DNA of 64,000 nt from Synchiropus splendidus (Eukaryota; Chordata; Actinopteri; Syngnathiformes; Callionymidae), in assembly GCF_027744825.2 (NCBI RefSeq), contig NC_071348.1, forward strand, positions 15,719,563 to 15,783,562, written 5' to 3'. The notes under the pieces are model-generated. The model made no database searches. It worked only from the letters and a program-made list of their open reading frames with translations, and was not told where the DNA came from. Position numbers and translations under genes: made by a program. Positions 5,801 through 24,576 of this stretch are shown in pieces. Each line of letters starts with the position of its first letter. Position 1 is the stretch's first letter.

Positions 5801-6458
5801 AAACCTCTGATAAAAAGTGCTGAACAAACGAAAAAGTCTCACAAACCCTTGATGACAATGTCTTGAGTTGACGTGTGGTTCAAAATCTGAATCAAACCAG
5901 TTTTTAATTGAGTTATGGTGGTCCTGTTGTATATACTGGAAATTCGAAAATATTATAATCAAAACCTGCTAAATAATATTTGATATTATTTCTGTTTTAA
6001 TCATTGATGAACCTGCTAAATAATATTTGATATTATTTCTGATTTTTATCATTGACTGTTTGATGTTTGAACTTTAGTGAACCTGTATGCTTTTGACCGT
6101 GAACGTTTGAACTCACGAACAGCTGTGTGCTTTGAACTAAGAATGACCTTGTAAGCGCGCTCGTTTGAAGTCATGTGCAGGTGGCCATCTTGAACTTAGT
6201 TTGAACTTGTAAGCGCACGTGCTGACAAAGATGGAGTAGATGTACTGACCTAATATGGTAAACCGGGCATCATTGACGCAAATAATGATGCAAGTGCTGA
6301 TGTAATTGACACTAATATGATCTATCACCAAACATGTATCCTTTTGAGGGAAGGACTTCAAAGGCCATCTGGAGAAAAACAAGATAAGATAAAGATATGA
6401 TTAATTACCTTGGCATGAGAAACGGACGTCGGTATGTCTTCAAGGCCATGTGTGTGGC

Positions 6459-6466
6459 TATATAAG
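6459..6466 (+). promoter_or_regulatory. TATA box of 5' LTR
   Basis: TATATAAG, placed about 535 bp into the LTR and followed by a GC-richer start region. It is conserved at 24141-24148 in the 3' LTR. Transcription would begin about 25-30 bp downstream, near 6490. Confidence 0.75.
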
Positions 6467-6825
6467 CGCTCGGAGATGTGACCCTGTGTTCTTGCTCTTT
6501 TTGGCTCTTCGCCCGCGTCTGTCCGCCGTAAGGTCTTGTATCTTATCTTGGGACGGTGCTATTGCTATTTGCTCTCAGACTATCTGATTTTAACTCATCT
6601 TTTATTTTTCTCTTACTATTTTTGAATTAATTCTTTTTATTGCATGTATTTTGATTATATGGTTTTTGAAGTGTTTTTGATTATATGGTTTTTGAAGTAT
6701 ATGTACTAGTACCAGCGTCTGGCGATACCCTTGAGTTTATGGATTTTATTATTCTTGGTTGACTTTGCTGTTTTTACTATTCTTTTATTAATATTTTGAA
6801 GAATCATTTTTGTGACAAAAAACAT

Positions 6826-6831
6826 AATAAA
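6826..6831 (+). terminator. Poly(A) signal AATAAA in 5' LTR
   Basis: AATAAA in the context CATAATAAAATTG, conserved at 24571-24576 in the 3' LTR, where it would end proviral transcripts. It lies about 335 bp after the inferred start site, implying an R region of about 350 bp. Confidence 0.7.
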
Positions 6832-6928
6832 ATTGAGTACGAATTAAGTACTGAAAAGGCACAACGGCGTTGATCCCTGACTACTAAAGAATCAACTGGC
6901 TGCTACCTACTACCATCAATTGGGTCAT

Positions 6929-6936
6929 AGGTGAGT
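6929..6936 (+). promoter_or_regulatory. Candidate major splice donor AG|GTGAGT
   Basis: A perfect donor consensus, AG at 6929-6930 followed by GTGAGT at 6931-6936, about 100 bp after the poly(A) signal and inside the LTR. It is conserved in the 3' LTR (cut after 24675). It could supply the common 5' exon for spliced pol, env and accessory messages. Use is inferred from sequence only. Confidence 0.5.
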
Positions 6937-7411
6937 TATTGTTTGATTTCCTCCTGTTGCACATGTAATGAGTGTCTCACATGGTAGCATTATTCCATCC
7001 TGAATTATTGTGTCAATGATTAGGTGGTAGTTTTAGGCATTAATGGGGAAAATGTTATTTGAAAGGAATGGATTGAGGATCTGATCATGAGTCCCTAAAC
7101 GAAGTTAAGTAAAGAGACTACGGTAAGAGGTGTAGCATTGTAAGGTCAAGAACCTGTTTCTTAACAGGTCGGGCTAATTAAATAACCCGCTCAGTGAAGC
7201 GCCGACACTACTCACTAATATAATAAGGTACAGATGATACGCTTATTATAGTCTTAGAACCGTGTCCGCAACAAGAGGCTGACTGAGTTGACCACCCGAG
7301 GGGCCCTTTACCAGAGAGGCAAAGGGAGGTAGTGTGCTCGGAACTAGGGACGGCTTATGTTATAGCCAATCGCCTTGTACACAAGACCTTGAAAACCTAA
7401 ACCCGACGACA

Positions 7412-7429
7412 TGGCGCCCGAACAGGGAC
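7412..7429 (+). other. Primer-binding site, tRNA-Lys3 type
   Basis: TGGCGCCCGAACAGGGAC directly follows the LTR terminal CA. It is an 18-nt perfect match to the complement of the tRNA-Lys3 3' end, the primer used by HIV-1 and several other lentiviruses. Mammalian foamy viruses use a lysine tRNA too, but the Lys1,2 isoacceptor. Confidence 0.95.
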
Positions 7430-7861
7430 ATGATTGAAAAACGTACAATCTTTTTGTGAGTAACTGGACCACAGATTAAAATTCTGGCCGGAAAAGTTCG
7501 GTAGTGAATAGATGGATCCTACAATCTCTGAGTTTTGAATCAAAGATATAGATTCAGGCTCTATCACTCGACAACGTACGATTGTGTTGATTCTACAATT
7601 TACCGAGAGACTGTCCCTTGGGACTGATCACCCCAAGCAGGATAGTTAAAGTATTAAGGTAATTGTAGTACGACTATATAATATAGCTGGAATACAGAAG
7701 TACAGCAAAAAGTCCCGTGAGGCCTTATAACGGGCACCCCATGGTAAGGAGTCCGCTAAGGACAACTTGGGAACTGCAGCAGGAAGCAGCGGCATAGTTC
7801 GGGAAACTGTTCATAGCCGGTAAAGTGAATTTCTTAAAAATAATTTGACTGAGATTGAAAA
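7430..7861 (+). other. Proviral leader between PBS and first ORF
   Basis: 432 bp without an ORF of note, where the packaging and dimerisation signals would be expected. I can point to no specific structure by eye. It ends in GAGATTGAAAA just before the macro-ORF ATG, giving that ATG a strong context. Confidence 0.5.
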
Positions 7862-8713
7862 ATGGAAATGAGCAAAGAGGTTGTGCCAAAAAGTGGTGGA
7901 GCTCTTACGAGAAGAGCTTCCATAGCCGAGTCTGAGGTTGTGACTGCTCCCCCTTATATGTGGGTAATGGGGTCCTTTCTGATAATCGATACACGATTAG
8001 AAAACCAGGAATTTTGGGATATCCTGACACCCGGCTCGTATACGCTTCTGAACCCACGAAGATGTCCGAGACCAACCGATAGTGCGGGGGTAGCTTGTTG
8101 GGTAAAAGAAAAATTTGGTGAACAAGTCGAGAAGTTTGATCAAGAATACTCTGAGAACTGGGAACCAGGCGAGGCATGTCCTCTGGACACAGGGGAGTCG
8201 AAATTACAAACGATATCAATGGCCCATTACATGCCATACGACGTCAAGAACCACGAGGGCTCCTTTAAGGTGCTTTCAGAAACTTATTACAACTCCTTGA
8301 GCCATGCTAAAACGGAAGCTGTCATAATTCCTGTCTTCGTAACCGGTGTGTTTAATTACCCTCTCGAGAAGGCAGTGCAAACTTGTCTTGAACATGCTCA
8401 ACATTGGGTGAACTATAACTTTGAATCCGCCCGAATGGTGATCCTCTTGGCCTCCGAGGCTGGGCTACGGCAGGAAATTATCAAACAACTGGTAGAGAGG
8501 ATTCAGGTGTATCCGGTGAAAGTTCAGGATTATGCAGCGACTCACAGTTGTCCACTTGATGCAACCTTGCTTGATGGTTTAATGAAGAAGCCCAAAGTGA
8601 GCAAGTTGTATAAGGAGTCTACCCATGACCATGACGCAGGGAGTATTACTGAAAGTTTTGTGAGTCAATACCAGCACTACCCAAGCCCTGCTAGGCCGGG
8701 GATTTATCCCTGA
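7862..8713 (+). CDS. Macro-domain-like protein in gag-leader position
   Basis: A 283-aa intact ORF; its ATG has A at -3 and G at +4. Residues ~35-215 read as a macro domain, the fold that binds ADP-ribose and in some families removes it from proteins. The landmarks occur in family order: a TLLNP strand (61-65), a GVACWVKEKFG helix (76-86), a GESKL strand after CPLDT (107-115), the helix ETYYNSLSHAK (140-150), the strand VIIPVF with loop TGVFNYP (161-167), the helix LEKAVQTCLEHAQHW and the final strand MVILLASE (192-199). TGVFN corresponds to the phosphate-binding loop. The second Asn of the usual NAAN motif is not seen (N64-P-R-R) and the glycine-rich loop is reduced to SAG, so binding is more likely than hydrolysis. 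The last ~65 residues match nothing I know. It lies 24 bp upstream of, and in frame with, gag (single TGA at 8711). A capture from a host or viral macro gene is an inference. Confidence 0.7.
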   Translation: MEMSKEVVPKSGGALTRRASIAESEVVTAPPYMWVMGSFLIIDTRLENQEFWDILTPGSYTLLNPRRCPRPTDSAGVACWVKEKFGEQVEKFDQEYSENWEPGEACPLDTGESKLQTISMAHYMPYDVKNHEGSFKVLSETYYNSLSHAKTEAVIIPVFVTGVFNYPLEKAVQTCLEHAQHWVNYNFESARMVILLASEAGLRQEIIKQLVERIQVYPVKVQDYAATHSCPLDATLLDGLMKKPKVSKLYKESTHDHDAGSITESFVSQYQHYPSPARPGIYP

Positions 8714-8737
8714 GGTGAACTCCAAAATGTTCAATCG

Positions 8738-10792
8738 ATGTACCAAGCAACTGGTACACTACCCCTGACAAATAAGGGACCATTGGACACCGCGTTACAA
8801 GAGTTACAAGAGATAGTCAAACTTCCGACTGCGCCACCCGCCTATGAAGCTGACCCAGCTCTTAGGGACCATGGCTATGCCACGCCAGCGAGGGTCCGCT
8901 TTCTTGATTCGGTAGAAAATGACCCCGATGATGGAAAATCCCTGAGCCCGAGTGAAACTGACAGAGGAGTCATTGCAAGAAGTTTGGAGAGGATGTCAGA
9001 GCAACTTAGTGCGATAACACGGCAAATAGGAAGTCAACAAGATCAGCTCGACAGGAGTTTGAGTCAGGGAGGATTAGGATGCATTTTAGGTTCCCAGGGA
9101 AATCGCCCGCATGCTATACAACCACTCAATCCCTCTAATGGCTCCATAGGGGCCTTGGATCTCAACGCCTCGGAAAACCCTGATGTCAGAGACCTAGGAT
9201 CGGGCGAGCCGGCCTTGGGTGAAATCCCAGTCATTAGAATGGATAATGGATCCATGTTTGTCATCTTACACACTTCAACGGCCAAGTACAAGCCAACTGG
9301 GGACAATGTAGTAATCCCCATAAGGAAGTGGAATGGACTGGAGGAAGTAAGGGCATTCACTCTGTGGAGAAAGAAAATTGGTAAAAGGGACTTCGATCAC
9401 CGTCTCTCACTTTTGGGAGAAGAGGTTCGTGACCGAAATTACCGAGCTCTAGAACAGGTCCATCAGTTAGATTTTACTGAGTGCGAGGATTCCCCCGTAG
9501 CCGCCGTTTATGTGACGCCACTGGTGCATTCGTGTTCGGTAGATGGGCAGATACACGCTGGAGCCAGTAAAATTGCTCGGCTTGAGTTGTCTAAGGTGAC
9601 CCTTGACCTTAATCCCCCCGAATCATTGGGGGTCCTCACAAATGCACAGCTAGCACGGTGGGTGACCGCCACCTATGCTACGCTAACCTCATTAGGTTAC
9701 TTTGAGACAGTTACGTGTCTGATAGGGAACCGACAACTAGCAAAGACACTCTATGACACAGTGTTACTTTTGAAGCAGGATAAATTTACAAAGTATCTGG
9801 AAAATTCCCCTCAGCTACAACGTGGCCTAGAGGATGAGGAGCACAGAGAGCCAGAGGAACCTCGGGTCCCCTTTCGACCCTCCTCTGCGTCTACACCATG
9901 TCCCCCAACCCCCTTACCGAGATCTCCGCGGGTTGAACGATCACCTTTACCGCCCATTGACCGTCAACCCACCCGGATGGTACAAGCAAAAAATTCTAGG
10001 GGGCGAAAGATAACGTGGGGAGAGTATGATGCCACCAAATGGCCGTGCGACCCCGATGAGGAAGGATTAAGAGAACGCCCTACGGCTCATGCTTATGACC
10101 CAGTTGCACACCAGCAACCTCCGGAGCCAGATTGGAACAAAGAAATAATCACACCTCAATGGTTTCCTCATGACAGGAAAGAAAGGGCCCGGAGAATGCG
10201 ATCTCCCTCCTCTGAGGAAATAGGTGGATGGCAAGGAGTGTCTAGGTCCTTTAAACAAGCATATCTCGCACGAGGATATGATGCCCATCGCAATTCCTTG
10301 ACAGATATCTACTCCCACATGCCCAAGGCCACTCACTTGCCGACAGACTCATGGGAAAGACGGTCTCCATGCCCCTCAGATTCCGACGATCAGAGTAGCG
10401 ATGACTCCGACAGTGATAGTGACCCGACTCTGGGTCCGCAGCCAGACCCCCCAACTCCTTCAAGACAGGGTAGCAGGATGGCCTCCACAGGAGGGATAGG
10501 ACGACAGCGTACTCAGCTGGCGGTCTCAATCCTTGCAGGGGGCCCCCCATCGGAGCCCAGACAAGACACTGACGTTAGAGTGTCAAGTAAAATTACTGTA
10601 GCAGACCTGTGCAAGGCACTCCCGAAAAGGAAAGATAAGGAATCCAACTGCGAGTACGTTAGAAGGTTGAATAAGGAATTGTCTCCATCTCAAATGGCTG
10701 ACCCGGTTATTAGTAAATATGTCTCCAAAGACCTCCGATATGGCTACTCTACTTACAAGCCAAGTGGAGGCAACCATTCGAGATCTGGTTGA
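8738..10792 (+). CDS. gag: Gag, N-terminal and capsid portion
   Basis: A 684-aa ORF in frame 2. Residues 30-36 form PTAPPAY, an overlapping pair of late-budding motifs (PTAP for Tsg101, PPxY for Nedd4-type ligases). A heptad-like helical stretch follows at ~78-108 (coiled-coil candidate), then a ~200-residue globular region, a Pro/Arg-rich linker (~380-500), an acidic Ser/Asp tract at ~547-563, and near the C-terminus (~620-650) a helix with CEYVRRLNKEL that resembles the capsid major-homology area. Its ATG has a weak context (T at -3), and upstream the frame is open back to the TGA of the macro ORF, so translation might begin earlier. The reading frame moves to frame 3 within 10719-10792, by mutation or programmed +1 shift. 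Identification rests on motifs and position before pol. Confidence 0.8.
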   Translation: MYQATGTLPLTNKGPLDTALQELQEIVKLPTAPPAYEADPALRDHGYATPARVRFLDSVENDPDDGKSLSPSETDRGVIARSLERMSEQLSAITRQIGSQQDQLDRSLSQGGLGCILGSQGNRPHAIQPLNPSNGSIGALDLNASENPDVRDLGSGEPALGEIPVIRMDNGSMFVILHTSTAKYKPTGDNVVIPIRKWNGLEEVRAFTLWRKKIGKRDFDHRLSLLGEEVRDRNYRALEQVHQLDFTECEDSPVAAVYVTPLVHSCSVDGQIHAGASKIARLELSKVTLDLNPPESLGVLTNAQLARWVTATYATLTSLGYFETVTCLIGNRQLAKTLYDTVLLLKQDKFTKYLENSPQLQRGLEDEEHREPEEPRVPFRPSSASTPCPPTPLPRSPRVERSPLPPIDRQPTRMVQAKNSRGRKITWGEYDATKWPCDPDEEGLRERPTAHAYDPVAHQQPPEPDWNKEIITPQWFPHDRKERARRMRSPSSEEIGGWQGVSRSFKQAYLARGYDAHRNSLTDIYSHMPKATHLPTDSWERRSPCPSDSDDQSSDDSDSDSDPTLGPQPDPPTPSRQGSRMASTGGIGRQRTQLAVSILAGGPPSEPRQDTDVRVSSKITVADLCKALPKRKDKESNCEYVRRLNKELSPSQMADPVISKYVSKDLRYGYSTYKPSGGNHSRSG

Positions 10793-11318
10793 TAAAGTGA
10801 ATAAAGGAGAGATGTCCCTTCTGCAAGCTTATTCCATACTGGCAGATGAGGGGGCTGATGAGTCACAGGTCAAACATTTCCTGGTACAGATTAACTGCCC
10901 TGAACAAGCCAAATTGGTTCTGGAGTTCCTCCAAGCGAAGGGACTGGATGCAAAGACTGAGGTTATCTCCCGTCACAGCTCTGTGATGGCTGTTAGAAGA
11001 GCCCTCAAAAAAGAAAAACAGAGACCTGATGTTCCCGGGGCTCGACTGTCAAAAAACGAGCAGAGGGGGAAGTCTCTTCCCCCTTTCGGAAAAGCGACAG
11101 CAAACCCCCAATACGGCCTGGCTCGCACTCAATCTACCTTTCCACCGAGAAAGGATCGAAATCAGCAAGACATCAGGCCCAATGGACAGGGTGGGGCCAA
11201 GCGCCCTCCATTCAACAAGAACGTGAATGGCTCAGCCTCGAATGCCCCCAGACAGCCTCATTGGAGGCAGGATCGTCCCCGTTCATACCCGTGTCCGAGG
11301 AAGAATGGAAGGCGATGA
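10719..11318 (+). CDS. gag: Gag C-terminal portion (capsid end and basic nucleocapsid)
   Basis: A 199-aa ORF in frame 3, overlapping the upstream gag frame by 74 bp and pol by 92 bp. The N-terminal ~85 residues are helical and charged (TIRDLVDKVNKGEMSLLQAY, QAKLVLEFLQAKG), consistent with a capsid C-terminal domain. From ~95 on it is strongly basic and rich in Arg, Lys, Gly, Pro, Asn and Gln. No C-x2-C-x4-H-x4-C zinc knuckle is present, whereas most orthoretroviral nucleocapsids have one or two; foamy Gags use basic Gly/Arg-rich boxes instead. It is probably the direct continuation of the frame-2 ORF. Whether the join is a disabling indel or a programmed shift cannot be told from one copy. 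Confidence 0.72.
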   Translation: MSPKTSDMATLLTSQVEATIRDLVDKVNKGEMSLLQAYSILADEGADESQVKHFLVQINCPEQAKLVLEFLQAKGLDAKTEVISRHSSVMAVRRALKKEKQRPDVPGARLSKNEQRGKSLPPFGKATANPQYGLARTQSTFPPRKDRNQQDIRPNGQGGAKRPPFNKNVNGSASNAPRQPHWRQDRPRSYPCPRKNGRR

Positions 11319-14300
11319 CGCAAGAGCAGAGGGAAGCAGTAATACTTGCAGCGGCCCGACGAAACCAGGATATGGGAAGAGATCTGACCGCAGCCCAGAG
11401 GAAAGTGTTAGAAAAGCACGAGCCCAAAACCCAACAATGAGGCCCTATAAAGTGCAGATTTGGGTTATAGATCAAAAAAGAGATTGTTACTATGACACTG
11501 GAACAGACATATCCATATTACCAAAGGAGTGGTTAGATGAAGAACTCGATCAGAAGGTGCTCGTAAAATTGGCTAATGGAGATGTTACTATGTTGGCCCT
11601 AGGAAGATTTAATGGTAAAATGGTGGCAATAGGGCCAAACCCTTTATTGTCTCCAAATGACTCAGAATGGATTATTGATGCCCCCTCCTCAAGTTGGATG
11701 AGAGAAGTTAATAGGATTACGGCTATAGAAAAATTAGTGTGTACTTCACACATAAAAGACAAGGCACGGCTAGAAAAGATCCTTTATTCGGCCGAAGTGG
11801 CCCCATTTAAAAATGATGTAGGATTAATGAAAACAGAACCATATGTCATTAGGGTTGGCCTCCCAGGCAAACAGAAGCAGTACCCATTAGGTAAATATGA
11901 AGATCAATTGCTAGCAGTGTTTAAAGAATTGGAACAACTCAGGGTCATTGAGAAAATTAAAGAACCACCCTGCTTAATGCCAGTACAAGCAGTACCAAAA
12001 AAGGATAGTACTGTCAGGCCTGTCCATAACCTAAAAATGTTAAATGACGTAACAGTGAAGGACACTAGACAAATCATCAATCCCCGACAGACCATGTTAA
12101 AAATACGCCCGGGAGAATATAACTCCAGTATTGACCTAGCGAATGGATTTTGGTCCGTACCACTGGCCGAGGAAAGCAGGCCAAAAACCTGTTTTATGAT
12201 AAAAGGACAAGGCTACATGTGGACCTGGCTTCCCCAAGGATTTGTGAATTCCCCAAACGCATTTCAGGAACGTATGGAGAAACTGTTGCAAGACTTGCCA
12301 GTCACATGTTACATAGACGACATATTCATCTCCACGGAGACTGAAGAAGAACATCTCGAGCTTTTGGAGGAAGTAATCCGGAGACTGAAAGACCATGGAA
12401 TGAAAATTGGAATCGCCAAATGTGAGATAGGAGTACCTCAAGTCAAATATCTGGGTGTCCTAGTTACTAAGCATGCGATAACTTCCACTGACGACTATCT
12501 CCAAAATCTGCACCCTACTACGCTTAAAGAGCTAGAGAAATGTTTAGGAAAATTGGGGTGGCTACGAAGTATGATCCCTTATTACTCCACCTTAGCGAGA
12601 CCTGTCGAGATGATCAAAAATAAGGTCAGGACATTCGACAAACGATCCCTAAAGTTAATAGAACATGATAGAATGCTAACGCCAGTAGAAATTGAAACCT
12701 GGAACTGCCTTATACAACAAATTCTCACGGATGGGGTGAAACTCGCTCCGTACCGAGATGGACAAAATATCTCTGTGAAAGTGTTAGAGGAAAAGGAAAA
12801 TGGTGGATGCGCGGCAGTCTACGAGGAAAGCAGTGACACACCGATTTGTTACGTATCCGTCAGGTATTCACCCACTGAAAGTCGATTTGCCCCAGCAGAA
12901 AGGGAACTCAGGTTGTTATGGAAAGTTTACACGGAACTGGCTTCCAACTTAGGCCAGGTTTATGTAAAATGTACAGTACAGAATGACCTCACTAAAGAAA
13001 TGGTCAAGGATACGGTGGAATTCGCTAAAGCTTATGCCTCTAGATGGGGAAAGTGGAAGCAGATGCTCTTGGATCCGAATTGGTCATTTATAATGGCCAA
13101 GTCTAAACAGCAGCCTAAAATCCCTGCAGTATCTCAACCAGATTATACAGGGATATACACCCTCTTTACTGATGGAAGTAAAACAGCACAAGATTCCGAG
13201 GGATTTTGGGGTTTTGTGCTTTACAAACGAGATAAACCCCTGTATAAAGAAAAAGGAAGAATGGGCAAGACAGCACAGGAAGCCGAGTTACAGGCAGTTG
13301 TCAGCGGACTGCAATATGTAAAGAAGAAGGGAATAAAATCCTTACGAATTGTGACTGACAGTTGGTACGTGTCGGAAGGGCTGAAAGATAACTTTAAATA
13401 CTGGCAGCAGCGAGACTTCCAGAATTACAAAGGCAAAGAGTTGGAAAATCGTGACTTATGGATAGTGGTGAACCAATTGTTACAACACATAAAACTATGG
13501 GTGACCCATGTCAATAGCCACACAGGAATCCAGGATTTTGATCACATGGGAAATGATGAGGTCGACAAACTAGTGCAGACTAGAGCAGTTGCGGTAGGCA
13601 CTTTGATTTTTCCTGATAAATGGAAAAATGACCAAGGGAAGCTTGTCATTCCTAAAGAGGAAAGGCTGGATTATGTTCGGCACATTCATCGTGCTTTGCT
13701 ATATATCGGGAATGAGAGGACGCGGAGATGGATGGTTGATAACGGGATTGAAGCCGGTCCTCTCAAGGACACCATATCACTAGTTAGACATGACTGCGAG
13801 ATATGCATGGAGAAGGGATTGTTACCTCCTATTGCTTATCAAGAAGGTAAAATTGGTGAAGAATTCCCAGGCATTTCCGCATCTATGGATGTGGGAGTCC
13901 TGGGTAGTCACTACGGCATATATAAAAAAATCCTGGTGATAGCTGACAATGGGGGAGGACACACACGAGTCTACCCCATTAAGAAAGAAACCACAAAGAC
14001 AGCTAAAGAGTGTGTAATGTCATTTATTCAGGGGAATCCAGTCAAAACCCTCAGATCAGATAATGCCGCCATGTTTACTTCAAAGCACTTTCGTTCATGG
14101 TTGGAGCAGGAAGGGATACGACATGTCTTATCCATCCCGCATCAATCCAACACTAACGGAGTCGCGGAACGTGCAGTGCGCGCGGCAAAATCGCAAATAC
14201 TACTGTATAAGCACAGATGGCACTTACCTGAAAACCTCTTTGCCATTAACCAACAACTCAGTCTCCCCAAGTTACGGGGTTCTACCCCTGCCCACTCTCT

Positions 14301-14382
14301 TCTCTGTACCACAGGGTATTTCAGCCAAAATCTCCAGAAATTACTATCCGGAGCCCTCTGTATCGTTACAGGTGGGAAGTGA
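11227..14382 (+). CDS. pol: Pol: protease, reverse transcriptase, RNase H, integrase
   Basis: A 1051-aa ORF in frame 1, +1 relative to the end of gag, starting at its own ATG as in foamy viruses, where Pol is made from a separate message. Protease: DTG at 90-92. RT: LPQGFVNSP from 335 and YIDD at 362-365. RNase H: first Asp in FTDGSK (649), Glu in the AQEAEL helix, Asp in VTDSWY (711), and a THVNSHTG/NDEVD end. Integrase: H819/H821 with CEIC at 857-860 for the zinc domain (the second His position is not clear-cut), then the catalytic triad D888, D945 and E981 with exactly 35 residues between the last two. No dUTPase is seen. Frame 1 goes astray after ~14300, so the integrase C-terminal domain lies in frame 2 (next entry). 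All catalytic motifs are intact. Confidence 0.95.
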   Translation: MAQPRMPPDSLIGGRIVPVHTRVRGRMEGDDARAEGSSNTCSGPTKPGYGKRSDRSPEESVRKARAQNPTMRPYKVQIWVIDQKRDCYYDTGTDISILPKEWLDEELDQKVLVKLANGDVTMLALGRFNGKMVAIGPNPLLSPNDSEWIIDAPSSSWMREVNRITAIEKLVCTSHIKDKARLEKILYSAEVAPFKNDVGLMKTEPYVIRVGLPGKQKQYPLGKYEDQLLAVFKELEQLRVIEKIKEPPCLMPVQAVPKKDSTVRPVHNLKMLNDVTVKDTRQIINPRQTMLKIRPGEYNSSIDLANGFWSVPLAEESRPKTCFMIKGQGYMWTWLPQGFVNSPNAFQERMEKLLQDLPVTCYIDDIFISTETEEEHLELLEEVIRRLKDHGMKIGIAKCEIGVPQVKYLGVLVTKHAITSTDDYLQNLHPTTLKELEKCLGKLGWLRSMIPYYSTLARPVEMIKNKVRTFDKRSLKLIEHDRMLTPVEIETWNCLIQQILTDGVKLAPYRDGQNISVKVLEEKENGGCAAVYEESSDTPICYVSVRYSPTESRFAPAERELRLLWKVYTELASNLGQVYVKCTVQNDLTKEMVKDTVEFAKAYASRWGKWKQMLLDPNWSFIMAKSKQQPKIPAVSQPDYTGIYTLFTDGSKTAQDSEGFWGFVLYKRDKPLYKEKGRMGKTAQEAELQAVVSGLQYVKKKGIKSLRIVTDSWYVSEGLKDNFKYWQQRDFQNYKGKELENRDLWIVVNQLLQHIKLWVTHVNSHTGIQDFDHMGNDEVDKLVQTRAVAVGTLIFPDKWKNDQGKLVIPKEERLDYVRHIHRALLYIGNERTRRWMVDNGIEAGPLKDTISLVRHDCEICMEKGLLPPIAYQEGKIGEEFPGISASMDVGVLGSHYGIYKKILVIADNGGGHTRVYPIKKETTKTAKECVMSFIQGNPVKTLRSDNAAMFTSKHFRSWLEQEGIRHVLSIPHQSNTNGVAERAVRAAKSQILLYKHRWHLPENLFAINQQLSLPKLRGSTPAHSLLCTTGYFSQNLQKLLSGALCIVTGGK

Positions 14383-14515
14383 GGTGTGGATACTCGCCAC
14401 CGGAAAATCTACCACTATAGTAAAAGTCGAAGGGAACGTACTTACGGGTAAAGATGGCCACAGGTACCACCCCAAACAACTACGACTTAAGTATACAAAT
14501 CAGGATGGAAGCTGA
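14300..14515 (+). pseudogene. pol: Integrase C-terminal domain, shifted to frame 2
   Basis: In frame 2 the region gives VSLQVGSEVWIL ... GHRYHPKQLRLKY, typical of the SH3-like integrase C-terminal domain. The preceding catalytic core ends in frame 1 near STPAHSLL. A one-base-type indel near 14296-14320 therefore separates core and C-terminal domain, and as it stands the frame-1 protein ends in an unrelated tail at 14382. The segment overlaps the start of the next ORF (14454) by 62 bp. Confidence 0.75.
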
Positions 14516-16064
14516 CCGAGACCATGTGCCAGGATGGGTTCAGGGGGTTGGGGAGGACTATGTGAAGATGCTCCCCGACCGAGTCTTCCCAAATAATGGC
14601 CTTTTGGTTATGGCCTGGGATGGTGTTAATCATTCCTGGAAAAAAGGGATTGTTATGTCCTATACTCACCCCACCACCAGTGTTAGATGGTCTAACTATG
14701 AGCCTGGTGACTGTGTCCTTTGTGCTGCGCCTGTTTTTGCCCTAATTTGGTCTGGAGATGCAAAGCACAAGCATGAGCACCGTCCTAAGCGAGCGGAGGT
14801 GGGCGCTGAACATTTGATGTGCGGGATTGAATTAATGGGGTCTGCCCCCTTCACGTTTTGCAAATGCTGCTGGGACTCGTGGGGATGTCGATATCAAATA
14901 CTACGCAAAGACACCCATTGCGGGCCATGCACCTGTGGCCGACGTAATGGGGTTTGGAATGTGTGCGATACTGGCACCCCCTGGCAGATAAACCCAGCAC
15001 AGTTCTTGGCGCTGCGGTATGGTTTTCACTCAAACGATCACCTTCCTCAGCCACCGTTTGCTTTACGGGCCAGTGTCATAGATTCTTGGAACTGCCCCAT
15101 TCTGATATACCAGACTATGATGTCTATTGGCTATGACAAATTGTCATCTAAACAGGAAAAGAAACTCTCAGTCATCCCCAGGGATACCACCATGAAGTGG
15201 GAAGACTTTCTCCCTTGGAAGTGGGAGGATGGCTTGTCTTTGTCTGGAGATGGAAGCCTATCCTTGCCAGGCTATAGCCAGAGAGGTTGGGAATCCACCT
15301 CCATGGGAAGGTGGTGGACCAAGCAAATATGGCCCCAAGATAGAGTGGCTAAGGGGAATATATTCTGCCCAGACGTGTACAACTACCCGCATTTAACCAA
15401 CAATAAGAGGATTTTTACAACTTCTGGAACCTTGCCCAGACATGCTAAGGAGGTACAGGAAGCCAGGGTCTCCACTATTGAACGTAACCTTATTCTTGTT
15501 ACTGAATGCGGCCCACGAGTAGTGTCTGGGACCGCCCATGTCCTTATCTCGTTCACTGGCTTCACATGGTACCCGTTGGGGGTCTTCATAGAAGTTGACA
15601 GAAAGGACTTGATGATACTGACTAATGTCTCGATCCCGGTCAGACCTGTAACAAGGACAAAGGTGACTGGATGGTGGTCAGCTTGGCTGAGGAGGAGAGC
15701 TAAGCTCAGCCGTACTGGATTTACTGAAGCTGTCCTGGATCATGAGATGCCAGGCTGCACGTTTTTCCAGCAGCACCTGGAACCATGCCTGGGAGGTGCG
15801 ATTGGTCCAGAGGGGGAGAGGAATAATCCCAAGAACAGTTCGGCTATTATGAACCAATCAGGAGAGATCAAAAAGACGGTGTCGCAAGAACTAATGCCAC
15901 CACCCTCTTCTCACCCACAGGATCTTGATAGTCCTGGGTCAGATGACGAGGAGGTGCCTAAAGTACGCGATAAAGGCAAGCGACCAGCTAGTGGTAAGCT
16001 ATCGCGAATAGCCCTCCTTCTCAAAAGAAGAAAGGGAAAGAAGAATAATGAATTTATGGGATAA
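14454..16064 (+). CDS. Accessory ORF between pol and env, Cys-rich, basic tail
   Basis: An intact 536-aa ORF in frame 3; its ATG has a strong context (A at -3, G at +4). It overlaps the end of the integrase by 62 bp and the start of env by 17 bp, so it is tightly packed between them. I do not recognise the family. Residues 123-171 hold nine cysteines (C123, 136, 138, 139, 145, 156, 159, 161, 171) including CKCC and CGPCTC, suggesting metal binding or disulphides. The protein is rich in Trp. The last ~60 residues are charged: an acidic SDDEE patch, then a bipartite basic cluster (KGKRPASGK ... KRRKGKK), a plausible nuclear localisation signal. There is no signal peptide or clear membrane span. 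Long intact length in an otherwise damaged provirus suggests a real gene. A nuclear regulator or host-factor antagonist is possible but unproven. Confidence 0.7.
   Translation: MATGTTPNNYDLSIQIRMEADRDHVPGWVQGVGEDYVKMLPDRVFPNNGLLVMAWDGVNHSWKKGIVMSYTHPTTSVRWSNYEPGDCVLCAAPVFALIWSGDAKHKHEHRPKRAEVGAEHLMCGIELMGSAPFTFCKCCWDSWGCRYQILRKDTHCGPCTCGRRNGVWNVCDTGTPWQINPAQFLALRYGFHSNDHLPQPPFALRASVIDSWNCPILIYQTMMSIGYDKLSSKQEKKLSVIPRDTTMKWEDFLPWKWEDGLSLSGDGSLSLPGYSQRGWESTSMGRWWTKQIWPQDRVAKGNIFCPDVYNYPHLTNNKRIFTTSGTLPRHAKEVQEARVSTIERNLILVTECGPRVVSGTAHVLISFTGFTWYPLGVFIEVDRKDLMILTNVSIPVRPVTRTKVTGWWSAWLRRRAKLSRTGFTEAVLDHEMPGCTFFQQHLEPCLGGAIGPEGERNNPKNSSAIMNQSGEIKKTVSQELMPPPSSHPQDLDSPGSDDEEVPKVRDKGKRPASGKLSRIALLLKRRKGKKNNEFMG
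15901..15920 (+). promoter_or_regulatory. Candidate splice acceptor before env
   Basis: A pyrimidine-rich tract (CACCCTCTTCTCACCCACAG) ends in AG at 15919-15920, about 130 bp upstream of the env ATG. An env message could be spliced from the LTR donor to this site. A short frame-1 ORF starts at ATG 15943 and ends before env. Use is inferred. Confidence 0.4.
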
Positions 16065-17664
16065 ATTCTGGTATTGGAGAGCTAGGCGCTGGTGGCAGTT
16101 TAAGGCGAGACAACAATTGGCATATAAAGATCAGGCCAAGGATATACAGCACCAGACACCAGCTACAATTTCCAGGAAACAAATGAAACGCGACAAAATG
16201 ATCAAGGAAAGGGAGAAAACCACTAGGATGTCTCCCTTGAGTCTTTTTATAATTGGAATGCTACTATTTATATTAATATTAGTAATAGCCTCATGGTCAA
16301 GTATAGTCTATGAACATATGACCTATACCAGCAGTGTCACCCGACGTTGGAAATCGAAAACAGTACGTTGTAGAAACTGCACCGTCTTGACCCCGGATAC
16401 GAAAGAAATATCCTTGCCAATTGCAACAGATAAAAATGGCACTCAATTTGATCAAGCTCTATGGATAAAACAAGCAATTGTCTACCTAAACATCCATGGA
16501 GCTATAAGTGGCACTTGTGAATATGAGAAACCAAAACTTGATAGTCAGGAAATGAAGAGTCAGGTGACCGTCAAGACACTTAAACGGAGACGTCGCCGAA
16601 GCGCGGAAAACCCTGTGGACAAAACTGCCGCACGTCCTACTTGGACAGCTGCTGCTATGTCAGTTACCCCCAGCCCGATCAATCAAGCGGGAAATATTAA
16701 TGTGATCGAAAACCATATGGTCAGTAGCATGACTACACCTGAACCTGGAAAAGATACCAGGAATAATGGCACGACAGGAATAGATACTCAGACTGCCTTA
16801 TCTGCCAAAGACAATGAAGGGAATCTCGGTGCAGCAATGACTGAAAAGAAGACAGTCATGGCCACATCTCCTATAGATTCCATAATCATGTATACCCCAA
16901 CAATGGCCCCTGATCAAATGGAGACTAACATAATCTTAACATCTGATGGCAAAACAGTTGACATAAATACGATGGCCCCAATGTTCACATCGGAGCCCGC
17001 AGATCCTCACAAGGAAGGCATGGGAGAATGTGATATCCCATTTAAAAGTGTTAACGTGTTAAATTGTGATGAAGGACTCATGGACTGGCTTCTCCAGGCA
17101 TCTCAGGCAGCATATGAGAGGCTGTGTGAATATAAGGCCCAGTGTAAGCGGAAGAATCAAACCCTATGTGAATACGACACCTGGAAAGATATAGTAACTC
17201 ATTATGGACCTACCTCCAAGGAATTTGCAACAGTAAAAGTAAAGTTAATCAATCATGAAGAGATGAGACTTTCTGGATGGTCCTTCGACATCAACTCTGA
17301 TAAAACCTGTTATTATAAAGTTTTTGCCCAACAAACGAGACGGGGCTGGTCGACGGGAGAAGATAGATATTATATGATGAAAAAATGCCAGAAAATCAAT
17401 ACCACCCATGTGTGGAATGCCCCGCTTATTAGAAGAGTTGAACAATCTATCTATAATAATAGAACATGGGAAGAAGAACTGTGGACAACCACAGAAGCTT
17501 ACGGAAATGAAGAATGGGATAAAAGTAATCAAATAGGACAACTCCTGTTAGATATAGCCCCCCTACCTTTTTTGGCAAACTCTGATCCCGACGTGTTAAA
17601 CACTGATTCGGCTGACCCTGTTTCTAGAAGAGTTAGAAGAGAGCTGGAGTACACATGTTCTTAA
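16048..17664 (+). CDS. env: Env N-terminal part: leader and start of surface unit
   Basis: A 538-aa ORF in frame 1. The N-terminal ~60 residues are basic and Trp-rich (W4, W8, W10, W15, W16), followed by one hydrophobic span (about 64-82) and a KRRRRRS furin-type site (179-185). This is the layout of a foamy Env leader peptide, whose cytoplasmic Trp motif contacts Gag during budding. Residues ~185-325 are Thr/Ser/Pro/Met-rich with few cysteines, mucin-like. A Cys-containing globular region follows, then a second furin-type RRVRR (527-531). The frame stops at TAA 17662-17664 but remains open beyond in the same frame. Overlaps the previous ORF by 17 bp. Role: membrane glycoprotein for budding and entry. 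Broken here. Confidence 0.78.
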   Translation: MNLWDKFWYWRARRWWQFKARQQLAYKDQAKDIQHQTPATISRKQMKRDKMIKEREKTTRMSPLSLFIIGMLLFILILVIASWSSIVYEHMTYTSSVTRRWKSKTVRCRNCTVLTPDTKEISLPIATDKNGTQFDQALWIKQAIVYLNIHGAISGTCEYEKPKLDSQEMKSQVTVKTLKRRRRRSAENPVDKTAARPTWTAAAMSVTPSPINQAGNINVIENHMVSSMTTPEPGKDTRNNGTTGIDTQTALSAKDNEGNLGAAMTEKKTVMATSPIDSIIMYTPTMAPDQMETNIILTSDGKTVDINTMAPMFTSEPADPHKEGMGECDIPFKSVNVLNCDEGLMDWLLQASQAAYERLCEYKAQCKRKNQTLCEYDTWKDIVTHYGPTSKEFATVKVKLINHEEMRLSGWSFDINSDKTCYYKVFAQQTRRGWSTGEDRYYMMKKCQKINTTHVWNAPLIRRVEQSIYNNRTWEEELWTTTEAYGNEEWDKSNQIGQLLLDIAPLPFLANSDPDVLNTDSADPVSRRVRRELEYTCS

Positions 17665-17667
17665 GAA

Positions 17668-18018
17668 ATGTTCCAAAAGGTAGAGACAAAAACCATGCTG
17701 GTATTACTTGAATCCATTCTTAACACTGTAACCGCAGCGAATCCAGCTAAACGTGAAGGAGAGAAGGAACAACAAGTTAAGTTTTTTCTCTCCATACCAG
17801 AGAAGACACAATTCGACAATTGTCTTTATTTGATGACAAATGGTTCTAAACCATGGTCGGACGGCAAGTCTCCCCCGGACACTCATTTCAGGGAAGAGGA
17901 GATTTATCCTAGGTGTCAACCAGAGAAAGATTGCAGAAACAAAGGGCCCAAGAGTGATGAGTATGACACTAGCCCACGAGACACTTACGTAATGTTTATT
18001 GGAGGTGGCATCTGTTGA
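17668..18018 (+). pseudogene. env: Env middle fragment (frame 1 after stop)
   Basis: Continues in the same frame immediately after the TAA at 17662. It gives 116 residues with a short hydrophobic stretch (TMLVLLESILNTVTAA), which could be a fusion-peptide-like or signal-like segment after the RRVRR site, then Cys-containing sequence. It ends at TGA 18016-18018. The next large env segment lies in frame 3, with both frames open between 17973 and 18015, so a frame change occurred there. Confidence 0.6.
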
Positions 18019-20036
18019 CTACCATGAGTGAACAAAGTAGGGACAAGATTAATGGATCGGGAAGAGAGTACATTGCAGATCAGCATCCGGATAGTAATTT
18101 CTGGAGATTTTGGCTGAAATACCCTGTGGTACAGAGAAGAGTCATGTGGTACAAATTAAGGGCATTGCAAGAAGATGGTATATTATGCCATAATAAACAG
18201 TTTAATGGTAAAGGAATGGAAGAAGGAAATGATTGTCACAAAGAACCATGCGAGTGCCGAAGGGACCAAATAGGCCTAGCGATCCCTATGATGACGCAGC
18301 AACCTTGCAGAAACTGGGTCAGAAATAATCAGTCAGTTTGGTGGGCTGAAGCTAAGAAATGTTTATCTCAAAAGCTTGGTATAAACATAACTCATGTTAA
18401 ATACGCGTATCAGCTCATTAATGAGAAGCCCAAAAATACAGAAAATAGGATATTTTATCCTATGAGAGGAAAAGACTGGGCAGAGGCAATGGAGTATTGT
18501 ACATCGGATCTACCAGTTAATTTATCCTGCCCAAGTGGCCAACCAACAGGTCAACAACCGAATAGTCATAAACACATTATTCTTCCCACATGTCTAAACG
18601 ATAAGGCTAAAAATGATCCGACGGTCTTCTTTAAGATATGGGAATGGTCACAGTTAGCCGGTCTCATTTTGGGACAAGGGTTAGGATGGAATTCGTTTGA
18701 CATAGAAAGTTTAGAAATGCTGATATGGCCACACCTAGTATGGTACGATGAACTACAAACCCCTAGCGATGGAGGAAAAAATACCACTGTGATACATTGG
18801 TTCCTTGTAAGCCCAGGATTGCCAGATTCTGTAAATCCACTCAACACTTTAAGGGGAAAAGTTAGAGACTATGAAGTAAAAGTGCAAACTGAGCAAGGAG
18901 TATGGGGATATGATTCAGTATACCAGGAGAATATTACTGAATGGAATAAGCCATCTACGGAGGGACTCCAAAATGATGACCAAAAAACGTGGTACGCCGC
19001 CCTTAAAGAAGCAACGTTATTGTTTAACCCAAGCCAATTATGGGGCGACATTACTCAAATAAAAGGAGGTAAAAGAACCCCGGGAATGGCCCTTCAGGAT
19101 CAATTAGCAAATTATCAAAATTTCTTAAAAAGGAAAGAAGTTTCCTGGAATGATTCCAATGGGGAAGTATCTATACGAGCCTGGCCTCATCTCGCAATGG
19201 AACCACTTCTCGTAGAGGCCTCGTCAAAAGATAGTGTACAGAAAAAGGGAAAAGTTGAAGATATATCTACAAGGTACACAGCTACGTTTCTGTTGCCCGA
19301 TCATCTGAAGACAATCAAACAATATTTTAAACAACACCCGGAATGGCGCCACGTAAGAACAATTCAGTCATCGTTCCCGTTTGTCCATACTACTCTAATG
19401 ACTACGGAAAGATTTCTGATAGCAGGACTAGACCTCTTTCAGGTCAATAATACAAGACAAACACAGAGTCAGGTGTTTGATAAAACTGAATTTAAGAAGA
19501 CTTGGTTCCCCATTATAAGTAGCGTTCAATATCCACAGCTCAGATGGCAACCCCAAGACCCCGAGCATTTTAGTTTAAACGTTACAGGATATCAAGGGTG
19601 TTTTCGAGCACCTAACCTGAAACCTAAGGCAGTTTATAGTCACGACTCTAATCCATGTGACCCGCATCAGTGGGGATATATCCCGTATAATAGCTCTGGA
19701 TGTTTTAATGGGTCCCAAGTAGCCAAGCAACTAAAAAGAGAGCACAAGTCTTATTTTACTACTAGGTGGGGGACACACGGTATATTGTCGAATAATAGAG
19801 AAAAAATGTGTGGACGGCTTGGGATACATGTAGCCATACCACACTGGCCGAAAGTGGCTGCTCCGATTGGGCTTTTAGAAAGTATAAATCCAGGGTTCCT
19901 CATGTATAATCGATACGAAACATACCGAGATGAACTATGTAACAAAGACAATGTGTATGCAAAGTCACAGACACATGTTTTTGAATTAGATGATATAATC
20001 CTATCAAAGATGACATACAGTAATTCATCCCCCTAG
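18015..20036 (+). pseudogene. env: Env large central part (frame 3)
   Basis: A 673-codon open stretch, with first ATG at 18024 but no signal peptide, so it is the continuation of the upstream env frames rather than a separate gene. The product is rich in Trp, has several paired cysteines (CHKEPCEC, SNPCDPHQWG) and multiple N-x-S/T sites, as expected for a glycoprotein ectodomain. It ends at TAG 20034-20036, after which the same frame is open again to 20528. This makes the env region about 4.5 kb, longer than the ~3 kb of exogenous foamy viruses. Which portion is surface and which transmembrane subunit is uncertain. Confidence 0.68.
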
Positions 20037-20528
20037 TACATTCCAAAAGGGGAGAGAATCTGCGTATATGAGGAATATAGTGCCCCTAAGATTAATATAA
20101 CCAAGGACCCATATGCCTGTGAAAAATTAAACGATTATTGGCATGTTGTACGTGACTTTCGGAAGAAAGTACCGACAGCAGGATGGCTGGGATTTTTTGG
20201 AATGATGTCGGAAGCTATGATGTATGGAATAGGACAGGGAGTTGTAGATACAGCGGCAGCTGTGTGGGAAATTATCCAATTTATATGGTGGTACCTAAAA
20301 TGGATACTACTTGTATTAGCGATCCTCGTAGCTCTCGCCGTAATCTCTAAAGTAATCGCCTTATGTCGGTGCCTTAATAGTATATGCTGCTATCCGTGCC
20401 GTGCAGTCCAAAGACGAAAAGGGAGACAAGAGAAAGAGTTCTTGAGGAAGGCTCTTCGAGATGTCAAAGAAGAAATAAAGAAAAAGAAGCAAGAAAAGTG
20501 GAAAAAAGTCAATGGACGAAGGGTCTAA
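20037..20528 (+). pseudogene. env: Env C-terminal anchor and cytoplasmic tail
   Basis: Open in frame 3 from the TAG at 20034 to the stop at 20526-20528; the first ATGs are at about 20202. It has an amphipathic hydrophobic stretch (GWLGFFG ... AAAVWEIIQFIWWYLKW), a membrane anchor (WILLVLAILVALAVISKVI, about 20301-20360), a Cys cluster just inside the membrane (CRCLNSICCYPC, a palmitoylation-type context) and a highly charged tail ending KKKKQEKWKKVNGRRV. Lysine-rich ends are common in foamy Env tails, where a dilysine motif retains the protein in the ER. The exact KKxx end is not present. Confidence 0.75.
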
Positions 20529-21064
20529 CTAGGTTTGAATTAGGCATCCCACTTATGTCTTAAGGATTGAGGTACTGGCCACGAAAGTACCTGAGGGGGA
20601 AGTAAATAAGGAAGATCTTAGGATAAAATCATAATTTTAAGTGTTAGGCACCATTTTAATAATATTAGTATTACTTATCTTCAAAGTTACCCATTTCTCC
20701 TAAAGAGAAGACTGGTGTCGAAGGACGAATCATACACTGTGTAAAAACATAGTTACTTAGAGTTCTCCTAAAACTCTCCTAGGGTGGAGAGAGGAAGAAA
20801 GAGAGAGAGAGATCAAAACTACCACTGTAATAACAGAAAAATACATCTTAATCAGTACCAAAGTATTAGTTTACGATATCACTTCAGGACTGATTAAAAT
20901 GAAAACTAAATGATACAACTTTGCAGAGCAATGTACTATGCTCCATGGCTCTTACCCACGATTACATTAAAATACCCATAAGTGTTTAAACACTGCACGG
21001 AACCAGACAATAGTTCGGACTCTCTTCTGGATGACATGGGCGTGTATTGGAGCAGATGCACTGA
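20529..21064 (+). other. Non-coding proviral spacer after env
   Basis: About 540 bp with stops in all frames. It holds a purine-rich GAGAGAGGAAGAAAGAGAGA tract near 20790-20812. No ORF is supported. A short frame-1 ATG ORF starts at 21031 and ends near 21120. The spacer may be regulatory sequence upstream of the 3' gene block. Confidence 0.5.
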
Positions 21065-21583
21065 CGTTGTCTGGGGTGCATCCTCGGATTAATAGTAGGG
21101 TGCATTCGTTTTTTCGTTAGAAAAGCATCCCCTTTACATGCCTCGTTCGGCCTCATTGGAGGCGCGGGTTTAAATCTAAGCCCTCAAAGACCATGGCTTT
21201 GGCCGACCGCGGTCACCATAGTATACGTACTGGACAGTCTGTACACCGAATTGACCCTTTTGTTTTGCATAGGTTCTCAGTGTACCTATTGCATTATAGC
21301 AGGAACGGCGATATACTTCATACTCATAGGCTCATTGATGGCATTAATTTGGTCAACCCTGGGGAGGTATAAAAAGGCAGCACTTAATCTTACTGCGCAA
21401 TGGATGATTCTGATGATATGGATTCTGTTCAAAAAGTTAGCTGGAGGAACTTCTTTGTATGTCTCTGTGTTTTATATAGGTTATCTGATGGGGACTTGTT
21501 ACCCCATAAAGATATGGAAAACTTCGAACAGCATAAGGCTGTTTGGAATGGCGTCTACTGTTCGTAGACCTTCTCAAAATTAA
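21065..21583 (+). CDS. Multi-pass membrane ORF, unknown
   Basis: Frame 2 is open from just after a TGA at 21062 to TAA 21581. The first in-frame ATG is only at 21338, so the upstream part would need a spliced-in start, a non-AUG start, or a lost ATG. The open stretch is strongly hydrophobic throughout, with four or five likely membrane spans (examples: CILGLIVGCI, AVTIVYVL, CIIAGTAIYFILIGSLMALIW, QWMILMIWILF, SLYVSVFYIGYLMG), separated by short basic loops. I do not recognise the family. The internal TATA candidate at 21368 lies inside it. After its stop the same frame reopens at 21584, leading into the next ORF. Either a small accessory membrane protein or chance hydrophobicity; I favour a real but damaged gene. 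Confidence 0.45.
   Translation, partial: RCLGCILGLIVGCIRFFVRKASPLHASFGLIGGAGLNLSPQRPWLWPTAVTIVYVLDSLYTELTLLFCIGSQCTYCIIAGTAIYFILIGSLMALIWSTLGRYKKAALNLTAQWMILMIWILFKKLAGGTSLYVSVFYIGYLMGTCYPIKIWKTSNSIRLFGMASTVRRPSQN
21368..21376 (+). promoter_or_regulatory. Candidate internal promoter TATA box
   Basis: TATAAAAAG in a GGGGAGG-TATAAAAAGGCAGC context, a close match to a strong TATA box with a GC-rich upstream flank. It lies about 225 bp before the 3' accessory ORFs. Foamy viruses have an internal promoter near the end of env that drives the transactivator gene, and this is the equivalent position. Function is inferred. Confidence 0.5.
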
Positions 21584-21587
21584 CATT

Positions 21588-21604
21588 TTGTAATGTTTCT
21601 ACAG
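21588..21604 (+). promoter_or_regulatory. Candidate splice acceptor before 3' accessory ORFs
   Basis: TTTGTAATGTTTCTACAG ends in AG at 21603-21604, with a possible branch-point TTAAC about 20 bp upstream. An exon starting at 21605 would open directly into the frame-2 accessory ORF. Confidence 0.4.
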
Positions 21605-21979
21605 GGCTCAATTGTGATTACGGACGGGAACGACAAAGCAGATCAATGGGATCCATGGCACACACAAAAAACGAGAGTCCTGTTAGCCCTAGATGTGATC
21701 ATGGAGCCCCTTGATCCCGGAACCAAAGTCTGCCCTGTAGACAAAGGAAGACATAGGATTTTTAGTTGGGGACCCTCCACCAAAATGGTTGAATATTGGA
21801 GGGGCGAGCCCTGCATGAGATTTACAGCAAAGGTGTCACGCGGTGTAATTACCCAAGATCATAAAAAGAAGGTCCAAAAATTATGGATACCACATGAAAT
21901 CAAAGCGAGGGATCAGGTTGTGTGTCATTCGAAAAGGAGACCCAGTTCATCCTCCAGGTATGGCCACGTTTTGTGGTAA
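21593..21979 (+). CDS. 3' accessory ORF A (128 aa)
   Basis: Frame-2 ORF from ATG 21593 to TAA 21977-21979; the frame is open from 21584. It is mixed alpha/beta-looking with several Trp (DQWDPWHTQKTRVLLALDV, FSWGPSTKMVEYWRG) and no membrane span. Family not recognised. It overlaps the next ORF, and its TAA shares a base with that ORF's first ATG (TAATG at 21977-21981). It may be the N-terminal part of the same protein separated by a frame change, or a separate protein linked by termination-reinitiation. Confidence 0.55.
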   Translation: MFLQGSIVITDGNDKADQWDPWHTQKTRVLLALDVIMEPLDPGTKVCPVDKGRHRIFSWGPSTKMVEYWRGEPCMRFTAKVSRGVITQDHKKKVQKLWIPHEIKARDQVVCHSKRRPSSSSRYGHVLW

Positions 21980-23583: not shown

Positions 23584-23597
23584 AGGAAGATATTTTC

Positions 23598-23606
23598 GGA
23601 GGGGGA
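23598..23606 (+). other. Polypurine tract
   Basis: GGAGGGGGA immediately before the TG of the 3' LTR, where plus-strand DNA synthesis starts. There is no spacer between the purine run and the LTR TG. Confidence 0.85.
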
Positions 23607-24140
23607 TGTTGTATATACTGGAAATTCGAAAATATTATAATCAAAACCTGCTAAATAATAATTGATATTATTTCTGTTTTTATCATTGATAAACCTGCTA
23701 AATAATATTTGATATTATTTCTGATTTTTATCATTGATTGTTTGATGTTTGAACTTTAGTGAACCTGTATGCTTTTGATCGTGAACGTTTGAACTCACGA
23801 ACAGCTGTGTGCTTTGAACTAAGAATGACTTTGTAAGCGCGCTCGTTTGAAGTCATGTGCAGGTGGCCATCTTGAACTTAGTTTGAACTTGTAAGCGCAC
23901 GTGCTGACAAAGATGGAGTAGATGTACTGACCTAATATGGTAAACCGGGCATCATTGACGCAAATAATGATGCAAGTGCTGATGTAATTGACACTAATAT
24001 GATCTATCACCAAACATGCATCCTTTTGAGGGAAGGACTTCAAAGGCCATCTGGAGAAAAACAAGATAAGATAAAGATATGATTAATTGCCTTGGCATGA
24101 GAAACGGACGTCGGTATGTCTTCAAGGCCATGTGTGTGGC

Positions 24141-24148
24141 TATATAAG
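24141..24148 (+). promoter_or_regulatory. TATA box of 3' LTR
   Basis: TATATAAG, the conserved counterpart of 6459-6466. Confidence 0.7.
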
Positions 24149-24570
24149 CGCTCGGAGATGTGACCCTGTGCTCTTGCTCTTTTTGGATCATCGCCAGAGT
24201 CTGTCCGCCGTAAGGTCTTGTATCTTATCTTGGGACGGTGCTCTTGCTATTTGCTCTCAGACTATCTGATTTTAACTCATCTTTTATTTCTCTCTTACTA
24301 TTTTTGAATTAATCCTTTTTATTGCATGTATTTTGATTATATGGTTTTGAAGTTTTTTTTTTGATTATACGGTCTTTGAAGTATTTTTGATTATATGGTT
24401 TTTGAAGTATATGTACTAGTACCAGCGTCTGGCGGTACTTTTGATATTGTTGGGTATCAGCGTCTGGCAATACCCTTGAGTTTATGGATTTTATTATTCT
24501 TGGTTGACTTTGCTGTTTTTACTATTCTTTTATTAATATTTTGAAGAATCATTTTTGTGACAAAAAACAT

Positions 24571-24576
24571 AATAAA
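24571..24576 (+). terminator. Poly(A) signal of 3' LTR
   Basis: AATAAA at the position matching 6826-6831; the likely 3' processing signal for all proviral transcripts. Confidence 0.7.

Follow-up and report, generated by a model that had tools for sequence, protein, structure and literature searches.

A giant foamy-like endogenous retrovirus of Synchiropus splendidus with a predicted macro domain at the start of Gag

A stretch of 64,000 nucleotides from the fish Synchiropus splendidus (assembly GCF_027744825.2, contig NC_071348.1, positions 15,719,563 to 15,783,562 of the forward strand; referred to as the window) was found to contain a single provirus of 19.2 kb, at 5925–25157. Downstream of its 5′ long terminal repeat (LTR) is an ATG-to-stop open reading frame (ORF) of 283 aa (7862–8713, plus strand) that, as judged from profile searches and a predicted structure, encodes a macro domain. 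Comparison with sibling copies showed that this domain (residues approximately 31–217; 7952–8512, plus strand) is not a stand-alone gene but the N-terminal domain of Gag in a giant endogenous retrovirus of foamy-like type. It occupies the position held by matrix in other retroviral Gags.

The 283-aa ORF matched the Pfam family PF01661 (Macro) over residues 75–175 with an E value of 1e-7 and a score of 32.3 bits, the curated cut-off being 22, and two sibling copies also scored above this cut-off (L012, 34.2 bits; L022, 31.4 bits). A hidden Markov model (HMM) built from 42 database macrodomain proteins was run over the first 25,160 bases of the window, where 112 ORFs reach 60 aa or more. Only one of them, the 7862 ORF, was matched (E = 2.7e-11; runner-up, E = 1.5), with 36.2 bits versus 8.1 bits for the best of 2,000 shuffled versions. 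A virus-only profile made from six viral copies retrieved 17 chains from the PDB at E ≤ 1, and all 17 were macrodomain proteins. The closest by this profile were MacroD-type domains (MACROD1/2, YmdB, and that of Oceanobacillus), which were near by fold too, with PARP14 (E = 0.083) and PARP9 (E = 0.22) being weaker; the sequence match to the MacroD-type domains was firm in the C-terminal half only. The NCBIfam models matched were those of MacroD-type or related hydrolases, every score being far under the cut-off. The model predicted by AlphaFold2 (AF2) displayed the alpha/beta/alpha macro fold and matched macrodomains across residues 29–217; PARP9 and bacterial MacroD were tied as its structural neighbours, while MACROD led by sequence. 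The initial annotation, made from the sequence alone, had recognized a macro domain by its TGVFNYP loop with a helix and strand behind it, and this assignment was borne out: the loop is present in the ORF, and the helix and strand follow it in the predicted model. Searches of protein databases, which admitted proteins of 0.55–1.75 times the query length and so excluded Gags of approximately 1,200 aa, gave no match to the ORF, nor did searches of viral contigs and PHROGs.

Searching the genome (583 Mb, 96 contigs) with the 283-aa protein gave 138 matches; 47 were fragments or second pieces and were dropped, leaving 91 near-full-length copies. In 45 of these 91, the macro segment was free of internal stops and formed part of a single open frame 970 aa or more in length; 40 of the frames were 1,187–1,218 aa long. 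Such a frame was present in 2 of the 3 copies in the 99–100% identity group (973–974 aa, the third being the window copy), in 27 of 33 in the 92–94% group (25 at 1,218 aa and two, exceeding 2,100 aa, that continue into Pol), and in 16 of 28 in the 63–65% group (15 at 1,187–1,211 aa). Frames of this length were absent from all 3 copies in the 82–84% group and all 24 in the 73–77% group.

Thirty-four sibling pieces, picked from among the 90 other copies so as to span the groups, were read. LTR sequence was found upstream of the macro segment in all 34, in agreement with the earlier view that the domain belongs to the virus. The frame from the first Met was at least 972 aa in 21 pieces, in two of which it was still open where the piece stopped. 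In 30 pieces, PTAP or PPxY was matched farther along the same frame; in L012 this late motif reads PTAPPAYE, the same as in the window copy. As in retroviral Gag, the frame is the first long one after the leader, carries a late-budding motif, and is followed by pol, although pol was deleted in 8 of the pieces and 6 others had no pol match inside the piece. On a wider scale, scoring covered 110 of 1,097 pol candidates, and 102 of the 110 were compared with the macro places; 80 had a macro segment or a fragment of one within 12 kb upstream.

In the window, the rest of gag is a 684-aa ORF (8738–10792, plus strand) in frame with the 7862 ORF, and only one stop (TGA, 8711–8713) and eight codons lie between them, the 7862 ORF closing 24 bases short of the following in-frame ATG. 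This stop is read through in the two nearest copies, and the first Met of the 8738 ORF is internal in the siblings. The ORF at 7862–8713 is thus the front of gag, comprising the N-terminal tail, the macro domain, and the linker. The initial annotation was right in describing an ATG-to-stop frame with a strong start context (TGAAAAATGG); what it took for an intact ORF before gag is the broken front of gag itself. The sibling groups nearest the window have the same start context, and the others a similar one, except for L037, L038, and L041, in which the frame starts later. Intact Gag frames exist among the siblings. The Gag of the window copy has two breaks: the stop that follows the linker, and a change of frame around 10.8 kb, at which point the two nearest copies likewise end their Gag frame (972/973 aa vs 1,217 aa in other copies); an ORF in another frame (10719–11318, plus strand) lies where the siblings have the Gag C-terminus. 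The order along Gag is N-terminal tail (in which RRASIAESEV is conserved), macro domain, linker, PTAP/PPAY (residue ~319), central region, and basic C-terminal tail. Since Gag does not start with Met-Gly, it has no myristoylation signal. A splice or readthrough route to the ATG at 8738, with a donor-like site at 7744, was dropped because the siblings have a single frame.

Ratios of nonsynonymous to synonymous substitution (dN/dS, Nei-Gojobori) in the macro segment were 0.18–0.43 over eight pairs, which are non-independent and of which L031/L038 rests on five changes. The deepest type of comparison, L012 versus L031 (66% identical in the macro segment), gave dN 0.21, dS 1.19, and dN/dS 0.18. 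The linker (residues 216–310) evolves faster, with dN/dS of 0.52–0.65 in 6 of the 8 pairs, 0.14 in one, and undefined in one. A tree of the macro segment and a tree of the next part of Gag gave the same main lineages; in the second, the broken copies L023 and L029 were on long branches and L013 moved slightly. The same lineages in both trees, together with the purifying dN/dS, indicate that the domain was present in the common ancestor of the sampled lineages and travelled with Gag. Purifying selection has retained it through the split into at least two lineages.

Motifs of the ligand pocket were compared in 11 aligned rows. NAAN is absent; its position, placed by motif order, reads NPRR (NPRS in one row), residue 67 being R or S. 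The loop NPRRCPRPTD is, NPRS aside, unchanged in all rows but one (L022). The GGG loop has become D[SG][AT]G, with only the last glycine left in most rows. Neither the catalytic asparagine of NAAN nor the GGG loop of MacroD-type ADP-ribosylhydrolases was thus found. The second phosphate loop is kept with its S/T-G-V/I-F/Y pattern, reading GTGVFN in siblings and GPGVFN in L022, and the histidine strand MAHYLP is the counterpart of IHTVGP. The window copy alone of the 11 rows has a valine (V160, 8339–8341) for the first glycine of the phosphate loop. Hydrolysis is unlikely because the catalytic asparagine is gone, as the initial annotation had supposed. Since this asparagine and the glycine-rich loop are replaced by a conserved Arg/Pro-rich loop and the second phosphate loop is kept, the domain probably binds its ligand without cutting it. 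On balance, we favour the reading that the macro domain borne by Gag is a non-hydrolysing reader of ADP-ribose or a nucleotide.

The main rival is that the macro fold was turned into a plain matrix, in which case the domain would be structural, its basic loop would contact RNA, membrane, or the Env leader, and ADP-ribose binding would have been lost. This is a real but lesser possibility: the domain stands at the matrix position and has a conserved arginine-rich loop in place of NAAN and GGG, but the lineages have retained the GTGVFN loop, the MAHYLP strand, and further motifs, which is more than a mere scaffold would call for. It is unlikely that the domain is an active ADP-ribosylhydrolase that travels in the particle and erases PARP marks in the manner of coronavirus Mac1. 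In favour of this, the closest sequence matches are MacroD-type or related hydrolases (the NCBIfam ones far below cut-offs), and the host genome contains macro-bearing exons, presumably of the PARP14/9 type; however, none of the 11 rows has NAAN, GGG is down to its last glycine in most of them, and V160 replaces the loop-2 glycine in the window copy. The essential asparagine of Mac1 is the second Asn of NAAN. A conserved asparagine has been described as essential in Mac1 of SARS-CoV-2 (PMC10499221), and both host and viral macrodomains that have lost their activity have been described (PMC10221186).

The proposal of the initial annotation, an accessory gene of its own ahead of gag, is very improbable. 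The orfC gene of walleye dermal sarcoma virus would be the comparison for such a gene, and the closure of the window ORF ahead of the next in-frame ATG would suit it, but siblings at 99%, 92–94%, and 63–65% identity have a single uninterrupted frame in which Met 8738 is internal. A stand-alone pre-gag gene was accordingly rejected on the single frame across macro domain and Gag in the 45 copies. Least credible is the recent capture of a functionless host fragment: viruses capture host genes, and indications of the source of this domain diverge (MACROD by sequence, PARP9 or bacterial MacroD by structure), but two lineages have the domain in common, and between them dS is near 1.2 and dN/dS 0.18.

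Several observations weigh against a Gag-borne macro domain acting as a reader. The divergent copy L031, of the 63–65% lineage, scored below the PF01661 cut-off (16.1–18.6 bits, E = 0.0018–0.011). The AF2 model had a mean predicted local distance difference test score (pLDDT) of 59, with residues 60–63 and 69–74 below 50, and its input alignment consisted of macrodomains, which biases it toward the macro fold. The hhalign alignment spans residues 125–214 only, the N-terminal half being poorly aligned by profiles, and when it was forced beyond this range the loop replacing NAAN was still unplaced; the correspondence of NPRR to NAAN hence rests on motif order and not on a confident alignment. 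Finally, at 22 of the 102 compared pol places the 12 kb upstream contained no macro segment, showing that not every related element has one.

As part of Gag, the domain would be in each particle at high copy. If it is a non-hydrolysing reader, its ligand on host proteins or RNA would be ADP-ribose, poly(ADP-ribose), or a nucleotide related to these, and binding would guide Gag, or the core on its way in, to marked host sites or, alternatively, mask PARP-made marks on viral components. Such a role may apply and is put forward with reserve. More tentative still is its extension to the whole group, in which the giant foamy-like clade would use the macro domain as matrix and Gag would be an ADP-ribose reader tying assembly or core transit to the PARP response.

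Gigantospumavirus was proposed for foamy-like endogenous retroviruses of ray-finned fish (PMC5512871). As far as the available part of that paper describes them, these elements resemble the present provirus in a lysine-tRNA primer binding site, a foamy-like Pol, and extra ORFs between pol and env; they are 17.4–17.5 kb long versus 19.2 kb here. Their ORF-1 is called gag by position, and that part of the text does not mention a macro domain, which sets it apart by description. For the gag of DrFV, a fish foamy-like virus, no detectable homology is reported in the accessible text (PMC10699275). A review, in the portion available, notes that some ray-finned fish endogenous retroviruses have macro-domain or CNPase ORFs, citing Basta et al. 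2009 (PMC4977317), so that the initial annotation, which knew of no macro domain described as a standard retroviral gene, needs amending on this point. These elements share with ours a macro domain in a fish retrovirus, but the review gives theirs as additional ORFs in a mostly epsilon-like passage, whereas here a foamy-like element has the domain at the start of its Gag. In the excerpt available of a survey of ADP-ribose systems in viruses, the retroviral entry is only a 2H domain, of fish retroviruses such as walleye virus (PMC9503650). Macrodomains of coronaviruses, alphaviruses, and hepatitis E virus are likewise macro folds in RNA viruses; in the available sections they are in non-structural polyproteins and some are hydrolases, unlike the structural protein without the catalytic motif seen here (PMC9503650, PMC10499221). 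The MacroD-type domains named above have NAAN and GGG, both absent from the Gag macro domain, and the PARP9/PARP14 macrodomains, besides matching more weakly, were seen to share no flanking domain with Gag. Among the matches listed in searches of the open literature, none dealt with a Gag that contains a macro domain. Fish retroviruses were already known to have macro domains; a macro domain heading Gag appears to be new.

The remaining features of the provirus are all on the plus strand. Self-comparison placed the 5′ LTR (TG...CA) at 5925–7411 (1,487 bases) and the 3′ LTR at 23607–25157 (1,551 bases), in accordance with the LTR-bounded unit of the initial annotation. The pair has 38 mismatches in 1,487 ungapped columns (2.6%), a distance that is not firm as an age since comparison of the flanks gave no matching target-site duplication. 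The primer binding site (7412–7429), 18/18 identical in 31 of the 34 sibling pieces, is presumably of the lysine-tRNA type. In pol (11227–14382), reverse transcriptase (RT), RNase H, and integrase were matched by Pfam and the protease region by a PDB match. The best PDB match was 7ksf (protease/RT/RNase H; E = 1e-55), and the top five (E = 1e-55 to 7.6e-48) were protease-RT chains (Pr125Pol, peptidase A9, protease/RT/RNase H) that we take to be of foamy type; Ty3 came next in the PDB (E = 2.5e-30). Because these chains are far ahead of the next match, Pol sequence points to a foamy-like provirus. Spuma_A9PTase of Pfam was matched in the Pol region at E = 0.043. No foamy Gag family was among the Pfam matches to Gag at E ≤ 1, and a zinc knuckle pattern was not found, the tail being basic. 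An ORF between the pol and env positions (14454–16064) had no Pfam match at E ≤ 10. The next ORF (16048–17664), with a hydrophobic stretch and RRRRR / RRVRR, is putatively env by position only, and ORFs downstream of 17664 resemble its broken continuation. A polypurine tract (23598–23606) was read directly 5′ of the 3′ LTR. A 188-bp satellite array of approximately 206 copies (25160–64000) directly adjoins the 3′ LTR and was not found upstream of the provirus, on which side a 41-bp minisatellite lies at 37–2604.

The copies also differ in what they have lost. Seventeen of the 22 macro-less pol places are at 92–93% identity with frames of 509–542 aa, and the macro-less places may be deletion derivatives, possibly complementary. 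In the 73–77% group, a TGA lies inside the macro segment in 19 of 24 places (L024 and L025 are among the group) and many places have a second partial macro piece 2.4–3 kb off; this group seems to have multiplied after its macro segment broke. Eight of the 34 pieces (L030–L036 and L042, 63–65% lineage, C1:39.87–39.99 Mb) jump from Gag to pol residue 918–922, losing protease, RT, RNase H, and most of integrase, with the Gag frame open for 1,063–1,205 aa. Genome-wide, 18 of the 91 macro places, all of the 63–65% group, had no listed pol nearby, and the pol-deleted copies look like a non-autonomous family retaining Gag. At C1:39846672–40188967, copies of the 63–65% group are co-oriented and 4 of 10 spacings are 13,055–13,065 bases, as if proviruses lay in tandem with common LTRs.

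If the proposed reading is true, a retrovirus has made a structural protein out of an ADP-ribose reader. A recognizable first domain has here been found in a Gag of fish foamy-like type, and it comes from a family central to the contest of RNA viruses with antiviral PARPs, which offers a testable entry point to how foamy-like viruses met host ADP-ribosylation. It is also a case of a macro domain retained by selection after loss of the catalytic motif.
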